Shown here: piece by piece, positions 61,051 to 63,778 of the stretch
How the letters are laid out: every line of letters begins with the position of its first letter
Numbering within the stretch: the stretch's first letter is position 1
Source: Bacteroidetes bacterium MedPE-SWsnd-G2
GTDB taxonomy: Bacteria; Bacteroidota; Bacteroidia; Flavobacteriales; Flavobacteriaceae
Assembly (NCBI GenBank): GCA_001874335.1
Contig: MPDE01000002.1
Coordinates: 248,001 to 312,000, forward strand
DNA length: 64,000 bases
Direction: 5' to 3'
Notes under the pieces: generated by a model
The model's input: the letters and a program-made list of their open reading frames with translations, nothing else
What the model was told of the DNA's origin: nothing
Databases searched by the model: none
Translations under genes and position numbers: made by a program

Positions 61051-61124
61051 GGCGAGGTAGCTCAGTTGGTTAGAGCGTTGGATTCATAACCCAGAGGTCA
61101 CGAGTTCAAATCTCGTTCTCGCTA
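61051..61124 (+). tRNA. tRNA-Met (CAT)
   Basis: A 74-base cloverleaf. The acceptor GGCGAGG pairs with TCTCGCT (G-U closing pair), the anticodon CAT is at 61085-61087 in loop TTCATAA, the T-loop is TTCAAAT, discriminator A73; CCA is not encoded. C11-G24 and a paired position 1-72 argue against an initiator tRNA. An A31-C39 mismatch is present in the anticodon stem. A tRNA-Ile with lysidine-modified CAT is a less likely alternative. Confidence 0.92.
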
Positions 61125-61146
61125 CAAGAATAATAAGTTCGAAATC

Positions 61147-61177
61147 AACGGTTTAGTTCACTCTAAACCGTTTTTTT
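61147..61177 (+). terminator. Terminator after tRNA-Met, U-tract ending at the integrase ATG
   Basis: AACGGTTTAG (61147-61156), loop of six, CTAAACCGTT (61163-61172), then T to 61177: a 10-bp perfect stem. The next base starts the integrase ATG. Confidence 0.88.
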
Positions 61178-62542
61178 ATGCTTACATTAAATGAGTACTT
61201 GACATTTGAACACAAAAGTGAACACAGATTTGAACACACTTTAAATTTCAATTTGAAAAAAGATCCAGACTTTTCTATCCCCAAAATTTACGATGCTAAC
61301 GGCGATATTAGTAAAAGGTGGTATGTTTATTTTAGATATCTAAATCCCCATACTGGAAAAAAGGTTAGACAAAAAAATATCTACGGTATAGCCAATAAAT
61401 TAAAGACAAAGGAAGATCGAATGTATGTACTTTTACATTACAGAAGAGAACTTCTCAAATTACTCACAGAAGGATACAATCCTTATGTTGATAATACCTC
61501 TTTGTTTTTAAAGCAAATAGCTGACAAAAACTCTCAAGCTAATAAAGTTCAGGTTGAACAAATTAAGGAACAAAATCAACCTATAGTTGAAATAAAGAAA
61601 GAGCCTCAAAAGCCCAAATCTAAAAGGGTTAAGAGGGATTCCATTCTCATCACCTCTGCTTTTAATAAAGCGCTTAGAATAAAGAGTAAAACCATGAGTA
61701 GCAAAACTACTCAAGATTACAAATACAAGATTAAAAAATTCAATACTTGGTTAACAGAAAATCATCCTGAAGTTGAAGAAGTACAGCATCTAACCTTAGA
61801 CTTAGTTAATGATTTTTTAGATTTCATTGAAGATAATCACACCAAACGGTATAGAAATAATTTCAGAACTGATTTAGGAAGTCTAATGCAACTTTTAGCT
61901 GATCGTGAAATAATTAAGCGAAATTTTATGCAAAGCATAAAAACACTTAAAACAAAACCACAACGACATGCCAGATACTCAAAGGAGCAATTAAATAATA
62001 TATTTGACTACTTAGAGAAAAACGACCCTATACTTCTTCTATTTATCAAATTTGTATCCTACAATTTTGTAAGACCAGTAGAAGTTTGTCGTATAACTAT
62101 TGGAAATATAAATTTAGAAGAGAAAACCGTTAAGTACAAGGCAAAAAATAGTCCTTTAAAAACTAAACGAATACCAGATCTACTTTTCAATGATTTACCT
62201 GATCTTTCAGATAAATCAGAAAATATGTTCTTATTTACTCCCGATATTATTGGTGGGTTTTGGGAAACAACCGAAAACAATAGAAGAGACTACTTTTCAA
62301 AACGATTTAAAAAAGTAAAACGACATTTTGGTTTAGATCAAGATTATACTATTTATAGTTTTAGACATACATTTATCACAAATGCTTATAGAAAATTAGA
62401 AGAGTCTAATTCGCCATATGAAGCGGTAAATAAATTAATGCAAATCACAGGTCACAAATCTAGAGCGGCTCTTGAAAAATATTTAAGAGATGTTGATGCT
62501 GCCTTGCCTAATGATTATTCAGATTTATTGAAAGATGAATAA
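61178..62542 (+). CDS. Tyrosine recombinase (phage-type integrase)
   Basis: A 454-residue integrase: an N-terminal Arm-binding-like region (about 1-110), a charged linker, a SAM-like core-binding domain (about 160-265) and the catalytic domain (about 265-445). The catalytic set is R299 (NFVRPVEVCRI), R396 in the box YSFRHTF (where the first His of HxxR is Tyr, as often in Bacteroidota), H426 (TGHKS) and nucleophile Y435 (KYLRD). It lies right after tRNA-Met and points away from it, the usual arrangement of an element integrated in a tRNA 3' end. No earlier ATG fits; the start at the terminator edge may in truth be elsewhere (non-ATG). Confidence 0.88.
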   Translation: MLTLNEYLTFEHKSEHRFEHTLNFNLKKDPDFSIPKIYDANGDISKRWYVYFRYLNPHTGKKVRQKNIYGIANKLKTKEDRMYVLLHYRRELLKLLTEGYNPYVDNTSLFLKQIADKNSQANKVQVEQIKEQNQPIVEIKKEPQKPKSKRVKRDSILITSAFNKALRIKSKTMSSKTTQDYKYKIKKFNTWLTENHPEVEEVQHLTLDLVNDFLDFIEDNHTKRYRNNFRTDLGSLMQLLADREIIKRNFMQSIKTLKTKPQRHARYSKEQLNNIFDYLEKNDPILLLFIKFVSYNFVRPVEVCRITIGNINLEEKTVKYKAKNSPLKTKRIPDLLFNDLPDLSDKSENMFLFTPDIIGGFWETTENNRRDYFSKRFKKVKRHFGLDQDYTIYSFRHTFITNAYRKLEESNSPYEAVNKLMQITGHKSRAALEKYLRDVDAALPNDYSDLLKDE

Positions 62543-63278
62543 AAGCACTAAAAAAATATTTGAAAAATTAAATAAACGGACAGTCCAACCGTATATATTT
62601 TATATTCCTTTTGATCTATTACCAGAGGAACAAAAATCCAATTTTCGAAACAACCCGCCTTTATTAAAATCTACAAATACATTTATAACTATTGATAAGA
62701 AATTCAATATAAAAGAGGGAGGTAGTTCAACTGGCGAAATTGATATTACTCAAAAACAATCATTCTTAAATAATCAAATAATTACCCTTCTCGAACTGAA
62801 AGCAAATAATGACAAAGAAGTCTTTAATTTTATAATTGAGAAGTATGCTAAAACAGTAGAAAGTCTTTATTCAATTTCTTATTGGTTATTAGAACATTTC
62901 GACCTCACCTTTAAATCTGAAAATGACAAGAAGAAAAAAAAGCTTTTCGAAATTCAATTAGATTGTTTTGAAATCCACTTTTTAGAGTTAAAAAATAGAT
63001 TTAATCAACTACAAAGTAATAAACAAACACCTAAAAAATTTAACCCATTTTTAAATCAAGAGTTTCAGAATCTAATTGGTAATCCTACTAATCAAATACT
63101 AAATTCAATTTCAAAAAAATTAATTTCTGAACCTCAGGAGCAGCAGGAGGTTTCTACTCCTTTAAAACGGCCAAAACGGGATAAACATATCAATGCCCAA
63201 CAAGCAAGAGATTACCTTTTGGATCATGTTTTTGGGATTAATTCTCAAGAAATACTGAGTCAAAACAACAAATTTTGA
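62535..63278 (+). CDS. Integrase-linked protein of unknown family
   Basis: A 247-residue hydrophilic protein, overlapping the integrase stop by eight bases, so it is translated with it. The sequence is Lys-, Asn- and Gln-rich with predicted helices (KKKKLFEIQLDCFEIHFLELKNRFNQL) and a basic segment TPLKRPKRDKHINAQQARDYLLD near the C-terminus, suggesting nucleic-acid contact. No known motif. Position argues for a role in the element's mobility or regulation. Confidence 0.6.
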   Translation: MNKSTKKIFEKLNKRTVQPYIFYIPFDLLPEEQKSNFRNNPPLLKSTNTFITIDKKFNIKEGGSSTGEIDITQKQSFLNNQIITLLELKANNDKEVFNFIIEKYAKTVESLYSISYWLLEHFDLTFKSENDKKKKKLFEIQLDCFEIHFLELKNRFNQLQSNKQTPKKFNPFLNQEFQNLIGNPTNQILNSISKKLISEPQEQQEVSTPLKRPKRDKHINAQQARDYLLDHVFGINSQEILSQNNKF

Positions 63279-63284
63279 TATTTT

Positions 63285-63312
63285 AGCGTAAATTAAACGT
63301 TTAATTTACGCT
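63285..63312. promoter_or_regulatory. Perfect 28-bp palindrome before the zinc-ribbon gene
   Basis: AGCGTAAATTAAAC (63285-63298) and its exact reverse complement (63299-63312) meet without a spacer. It lies seven bases after the stop of the unknown gene and ends one base before the next ATG. It could be an operator, a protein-binding site of the element, or a terminator-like hairpin (no T-run follows). Confidence 0.7.
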
Positions 63313-63313
63313 T

Positions 63314-63778
63314 ATGGAAACAAGACATTATATTTGTGACTATTGTCAAAAAGAATATTTACCAAGACGTAGGGGTATACAAAAGTATTGTAGTAATAGC
63401 TGCCGCTCTCGGGGGTATCAAATAAAATCTAAATCTACAAGTTCAAATCTACCGGTAAAGAAAGAAACTGAATCACTAGTTGCCAAATCTACATCTGAAA
63501 AGAAAGCTCCTGCAATAAAAGTTGACTCTATGTCTTCAGCCGGTGTTGGTAATTCAACAACTGGAACGGTAATAGGAAATGCTGCTTATGAATTAGGGAA
63601 AGCAATATTTACACCTGAAGTAAATAAACCTGCAACAAAAGGTGATCTTAATAAAATAGCCCAACTTATCTCAAATCAGTATCTTCCCATTTTGAATTTA
63701 GGACCTAATAACTTAGGCTATTTTCCCCATTACGACACAAAAACTCAAAAATTAGTTTACTTAAAAAATAGAAGTTAA
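63314..63778 (+). CDS. Small zinc-ribbon protein of the element
   Basis: A 154-residue protein opening with a zinc-binding pattern C8-x2-C11-x14-C26-x3-C30 with many Arg (CDYCQKEYLPRRR), a basic Ser/Thr-rich middle and a Gly/Ala-rich segment GVGNSTTGTVIGNAAYELG that could be a membrane or packing helix. The end holds KPATKGDLNKIAQLISNQYLPIL. The zinc part resembles short zinc ribbons in mobility and DNA-binding proteins. No named family. Its start lies directly after the 28-bp palindrome. Confidence 0.65.
   Translation: METRHYICDYCQKEYLPRRRGIQKYCSNSCRSRGYQIKSKSTSSNLPVKKETESLVAKSTSEKKAPAIKVDSMSSAGVGNSTTGTVIGNAAYELGKAIFTPEVNKPATKGDLNKIAQLISNQYLPILNLGPNNLGYFPHYDTKTQKLVYLKNRS

Follow-up and report, generated by a model that had tools for sequence, protein, structure and literature searches.

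Autorepressors with a palindromic operator at the start of their own gene are a general kind of regulator, and the Ogr/Delta zinc-finger activators of the P2/P4 phages are small zinc-binding regulators of mobile elements which act at dyad sites. The locus described here shares with the autorepressors one symmetric site which abuts the gene of a small, putatively DNA-binding protein and which co-varies with that protein. It differs from them in that the proposed reader, designated ZR, carries a single FCS-like zinc finger, and in that autoregulation is here inferred; no Pfam match to a helix-turn-helix or ribbon-helix-helix was found in ZR. Like the Ogr/Delta activators, ZR would be a small zinc-binding regulator of a mobile element at a dyad site, but its site is found only at its own gene, and no Pfam match to the Ogr/Delta or Com zinc-finger regulators was obtained at E values up to 1.

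The cysteine arrangement of ZR (CxxC/CxxxC) resembles those of the zf-FCS (MYM-type) fingers and the zinc ribbons of phage HNH endonucleases. Its similarity to zf-FCS (Pfam PF06467; E 0.048, 13.9 bits) does not reach the cut-off of 22.4, the match to PHROG families of HNH endonucleases is weak (E 2.5e-5), and the ZR model aligns with the FCS finger 2w0t at a low Z of 2.9. ZR differs from the phage enzymes in having no Pfam match to the HNH nuclease domain, and from both groups in possessing a C-terminal part of its own and a tie to the palindrome. This part contains conserved GxGNAxxG, KPATKxDI and PYYD...VY motifs, the conservation of which suggests a second function. Neither ZR nor the protein encoded by the neighbouring 247-aa ORF had an NCBIfam or PADLOC match, or a Pfam match above cut-off; fold searches with both models returned nothing at Foldseek E ≤ 0.001 or VIA Z ≥ 5, and the best hit of a PDB profile search (E 0.052) was not convincing.

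As in integrative genomic islands, which carry tyrosine recombinases at tRNA genes together with defence cargo, an integrase gene lies beside tRNA-Met and variable cargo, e.g. a prokaryotic viperin, follows downstream. The difference lies in the shared core, which here comprises only the integrase, the 247-aa ORF and ZR, plus the palindrome. Among open-licence papers we found no named island family matching this element and no literature on the ZR-palindrome pair. While an operator with its own regulator is of a known kind, the zinc-finger family and its site-reading residues appear to be new.

Our preferred reading, to which we assign a probability of about three in four, is that the palindrome is a DNA operator of ZR, encoded directly downstream, and serves autoregulation. 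ZR very probably docks on it, since the site and the putative DNA-reading helix of the protein changed together across many related islands. This reading draws on site conservation, duplex-DNA symmetry, gene association and residue-to-base covariation, all of them seen by comparing sequences.

The palindrome and its host element

The window, i.e. the whole 64-kb stretch of DNA analysed, contains the features listed in Table 1. From tRNA-Met the order is integrase, 247-aa ORF, palindrome and ZR gene, so that a tyrosine recombinase stands beside a tRNA gene as in tRNA-integrating genomic islands.

Table 1. Features of the element and of the proposed operator, with positions in the window
Feature	Position	Strand	Remarks
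tRNA-Met (CAT)	61051..61125	+	Insertion site for the element type
Tyrosine recombinase (integrase) of the element	61178..62542	+	
247-aa ORF	62535..63278	+	Neighbour conserved across most elements, not all
Perfect palindrome, proposed operator	63285..63312	.	28 bp; dyad between 63298 and 63299
Specificity pair, dyad -6 and +6	63293 (T) and 63304 (A)	.	Base class tracks zinc-finger residues 33/36
ZR, 154-aa zinc-finger protein	63314..63778	+	Proposed palindrome binder and product of the putatively regulated gene
ZR codons 28-43	63395..63442	+	Predicted helix at/after the last zinc-binding cysteine; residues co-vary with the palindrome
ZR residue 33 (R)	63410-63412		
ZR residue 36 (Q)	63419-63421		

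The left arm of the palindrome (63285-63298) reads AGCGTAAATTAAAC and its exact reverse complement follows at 63299-63312, giving arms of 14 bp each with a spacer of 0; between the palindrome and the ATG of ZR there is a single T (63313). The initial annotation had recorded a 28-bp perfect, spacerless palindrome one base 5' of a zinc-ribbon ATG and had called it very unlikely by chance, and both statements are borne out. No other spacerless palindrome in the window has arms as long as 10 bp; arms of at least 14 are expected 0.001 times per window from base composition, and none of 40 first-order Markov surrogates contained one with arms of at least 12. The degenerate family pattern (≤3 mismatches) matches the window once as well (0.08 expected). 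The genome count, which the same annotation had proposed as a check, gave one place in the 3.03-Mb genome at up to 3 mismatches, and a single copy even at this tolerance rules out a scattered repeat.

Beyond the window the contig continues for 3.3 kb. A repeat of the tRNA end, which would mark the far boundary of the element, was not seen in the window's element; a tRNA-end copy with 1 mismatch is present in relative G040 (L033:15209). About 640 bases beyond the window end lies a cargo gene (L002:3639-4505) whose product is an antiviral radical SAM protein of the viperin family (NF038283, 330 bits against a cut-off of 180); the same part of the contig encodes an apparent signalling pair. A tRNA-Met gene, of one of two kinds, was found in 11 of 20 wide stretches from relatives. 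When the proteins of the named loci were clustered, only the integrase, the 247-aa ORF (for which no family match was found at a meaningful score) and ZR proved to be shared; the remaining clusters of at least 17 loci lie mostly upstream of the element, one being a second integrase type, and the genes downstream are variable. A prophage reading is without support, because searches of viral_contigs gave neither relatives for ZR or the 247-aa protein nor an exact match to the site pattern, and phage records gave no ZR relative.

Occurrence of the site beside ZR genes

Of 199 family genomes, 25 encode a relative of ZR. The comparison used the best 80 of 97 candidate loci encoding a ZR relative; as these were found through the zinc-finger pattern, very divergent fingers are under-sampled among them. 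Their record titles name Flavobacteriaceae genera, apart from a few which give a higher rank or an uncultured organism. From 60 distinct sites a symmetric 30-bp weight matrix (about 34 bits) was built, and a score >15 anywhere in a locus was called a site. By this measure 74 of the best 80 loci carry a recognisable palindrome, while the maximum for 1,872 random 150-bp stretches, scored with the first matrix, was 11.6. The site nearly always ends 1-16 bp upstream of the ZR start codon where that start is clear, and the aligned sites give the family consensus wTTWWRCGTMAAWYAAACGTTTRWTTKACGYWWAAw. Six loci (L076, L087, L094, L134, L136, L142) have no site above threshold: no ZR start was called in L076 and L142, L136 meets a contig edge, the sites of L094 and L134 are degenerate, and one arm of the L087 site seems to have lost 1 bp.

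One site per element is the rule. Off-gene matches scoring >8 numbered four in 1.73 Mb of loci (10.6 to 13.0, one overlapping a true site). L075 has a second site (24.6) near the contig end, and for this locus the higher-scoring site 3' of ZR was used rather than that at its own start; the class result is unaffected, as the two sites share the T-A class. Genome-wide, with one mismatch allowed, 27 of 299 family genomes contain the pattern CGTMAANNNAACGTTNNNTTKACG, at 33 places in all, and 5 genomes contain the reversed control pattern. A ZR gene follows 31 of the 33 places. The place in G599 is probably a chance match. A lone near-perfect palindrome in G040 (L201:6357-6380) has a partial tRNA-Met sequence about 400 bp away; neither an integrase nor a ZR gene was found near it, and it is read as a stripped or decayed element. 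Two outcomes would have told against the initial annotation, namely a site not conserved next to relatives of these genes and a repeat scattered independently of them; the counts of 74 in 80 and 31 in 33 speak against both.

Outside the family, full-length relatives of ZR were scarcely encountered. At the order level 38 of 395 genomes match, the strong matches all lying within the family and most of the others covering little beyond the zinc finger; at the phylum level 8 of 395 match. In the first set, loci L025-L027 match in part or belong to another family, and they lack the site. A ZR homologue on a Persicobacter plasmid, with 23.5% identity, is directly preceded at its start codon by the inverted repeat TACCGTTAAATAGAATAAAATTTAACGGTA, in which the CGTTAA/TTAACG outer boxes and their spacing are retained and the centre is changed.

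The integrase is present in 63, and a match to the 247-aa protein in 61, of the best 80 loci. A second element type has another integrase, other upstream ORFs and no 247-aa gene; its neighbour we take to be mnmE. It comprises L094, L101, L115, L126, L129, L135, L140, L141 and L143, and carries an extra zinc-finger gene upstream of its integrase, before which no palindrome was found. Within a third type the 247-aa gene has shrunk to a short ORF (L089, L100, L109, L122, L123 and L130; 61-67 aa where read, with the C-terminal motif retained), and in L065 and L073 ZR stands alone among other genes. The palindrome is retained at ZR in the second, third and stand-alone types, in L094 of the second type only in degenerate form. 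The site thus goes with ZR even when the integrase and the 247-aa gene differ, shrink or vanish.

Such joint movement of ZR and site between elements with different integrases would also be expected if ZR bound the palindrome as a cis site for movement or upkeep of the element (excision control, replication, partition, transfer or packaging), its position at the start codon being incidental. The rule of one site per element, and the ZR-less copy near the partial tRNA-Met, such as a stripped-down or decayed element would leave, fit this explanation too. A free-standing site, however, needs no position 1-16 bp before the ZR start, and no half-site at the integrase end changes with ZR class, and we consider the explanation unlikely. 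A half-site search near the integrase start did give raised scores (median 5.7 vs 0.8); these come largely from a hairpin which is the same in both ZR classes, and they are for that reason not taken as a second operator. The hairpin (GGTTTAG-TTCACT-CTAAACC, at 61142-61177) lies between tRNA-Met and the start of the integrase gene. Many relatives share it, loop included, and in 18 of 59 loci the best half-site match is one and the same 15-mer; the hairpin may terminate the tRNA transcript, serve as an arm site for the integrase, or do both.

Arm symmetry and covariation with the zinc finger

Across 64 distinct 36-mers and 14 positions, complementary pairs between the arms fill 718 of 896 cells, as against 640 (sd 8.7) when the right-arm bases are dealt anew, and G.T mismatches number 18 where 27 are expected. 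The arms thus change together, which was the compensatory change that the initial annotation had proposed to look for. Since the arms change together and G.U-type mismatches are depleted, the palindrome appears, from its sequence, to behave as a duplex-DNA dimer site rather than as an RNA hairpin. Perfect palindromes can also be maintained by template-switch correction, and for this reason arm covariation alone is no proof of binding.

The same annotation had offered, besides the operator, an RNA structure hiding the start region, that is, a hairpin over the start codon acting in attenuation or translational control. RNA from the window does fold better than shuffles (-14.2 kcal/mol, z -2.9). 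When the leaders of the window and five relatives were folded, however, three imperfect leaders from relatives did no better than shuffles; an RNA stem would accommodate G.T mismatches, and these are depleted, so that a stem kept with wobble tolerance across relatives, as in an RNA attenuator, was not seen; no Rfam family is found at the site; and a hairpin is at odds with the links between bases and zinc-finger helix described below. We regard this alternative as highly improbable.

Distances between sites were compared with those between proteins at 45 non-redundant loci in which every part is present. The strongest correlation with site distance is that of the ZR finger (r 0.54), followed by the ZR C-terminal part and the 247-aa protein (0.32 each) and the integrase (0.25). 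With the ZR C-terminus, the 247-aa protein and the integrase controlled for, the finger retains a partial r of 0.44 (permutation p 0.001). The corresponding values are 0.05 (p 0.21) for the 247-aa protein and 0.03 for the integrase, each controlled for ZR and for the other. Linkage does not explain the correlation, because the C-terminal part of the 247-aa protein, which is as near the site as the finger, has a partial r of 0.07. The values of 0.05 and 0.07 argue against the 247-aa protein as the binder of the palindrome and controller of ZR, as does the persistence of ZR and site where its gene is absent or reduced to 61-67 aa. Although the gene adjoins the site in most loci and a match is present in three-quarters of the best 80, this reading is disfavoured by the sequence comparison, and we give it scarcely any credence. 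A neutral repeat or chance palindrome, for which nothing was found in favour beyond the AT-rich make-up, is of negligible probability in view of the single genomic copy and the chance expectation given above, and had already been refuted by conservation of the site.

Among 9,310 pairs of site base and ZR residue, the top two join dyad position -6 with residue 33 (z 8.9) and residue 36 (z 7.7); the third-ranked pair has z 5.4. Of the 74 loci which encode a finger, 36 have H36, and every one of these carries A at -6; the 26 loci with T at -6 all lack H36. K33 occurs in 43 of 48 loci with A at this position and in 3 of 26 with T. Residue 36 is no perfect code, as 12 of 38 loci without H36 still carry A at -6, and L102 and L117 keep K33 with N at 36 and T at -6. 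The natural switch forms are AAAC with K33/H36 and AATT with R or S33/Q36. L139, in which the ORF used has no zinc-finger motif, was excluded from the residue table and the pair scan and kept in the distance tests. All 12 held-out ZR loci obey the residue-base rule; as many come from the same two broad classes, this result is supportive, not independent proof.

Site class changes six times on the tree of integrase plus 247-aa protein. For its five supported independent pairs K33 agrees in 5 and H36 in 4.67 on average, with none against; the sign test value, 0.0625, is the lowest possible for five pairs. None of eight other finger residues does as well (12, 21, 29 and 35 without consistent agreement; 16, 25, 34 and 38 with 2.1 to 3.5 of 5). 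A test on the ZR tree has only three supported independent switches. The ZR finger is modelled with pLDDT about 94 over residues 11-40, and residues 33 and 36, in the predicted helix 28-43 and three apart, would share one helix face. In comparative terms, site specificity follows the residues with which the regulator would read DNA.

Proposed mode of action and significance

On the preferred reading, i.e. an operator of ZR, two zinc fingers, or two pairs of them, would dock as a dimer on the symmetric half-sites RCGTMAAWYAA(CG) and read the outer CGT box and the central ACGT, with helix residues 33 and 36 reading dyad positions ±6, and probably also ±5. Since the site abuts the start codon, its occupancy should control ZR synthesis. 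Negative autoregulation is most likely, holding ZR low, so that ZR would probably repress rather than activate, presumably to the benefit of the element. A symmetric duplex site lies beside, and is conserved with, the gene of its proposed regulator, as in autoregulatory operators. The initial annotation had suggested an operator allowing autoregulation of the zinc-ribbon protein; site-gene association and the covariation of arms and of residues with bases give this strong comparative support, while binding and the sense of regulation are what we infer. No promoter motif at a fixed position near the site was found in 75 loci, and exact TANNTTTG, which we take to be the Bacteroidota -7 box, is present in 8 of the 75, not above control stretches (13%).

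An orphan zinc-finger family is thereby given a regulatory role which is open to test, with both its site and its specificity residues predicted, and this offers a handle on the control of defence-carrying Flavobacteriaceae islands. The natural AAAC/AATT switches are a ready series for the joint specificity change of a zinc finger and its operator. More tentatively, and with the balance of likelihood somewhat against it, ZR and palindrome may form a portable control cassette, its specificity set mainly by helix residues 33/36, which is swapped between elements with unrelated integrases and governs, besides its own gene, the maintenance of the element or its immunity; such a cassette would span widespread, undescribed defence-carrying elements of the Flavobacteriaceae, an unnamed single-zinc-finger family and a Cytophagia plasmid.

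The notion that site classes define immunity groups finds no support: of 11 pairs of co-resident elements 64% differ in class, where chance would give 46% (P 0.21), and the mean distance between their sites does not exceed chance. Two elements with ZR genes, at loci L033 and L034 of G040, lie head to tail about 29 kb apart at one tRNA-Met gene, with a tRNA-end copy between them and operators of different class.
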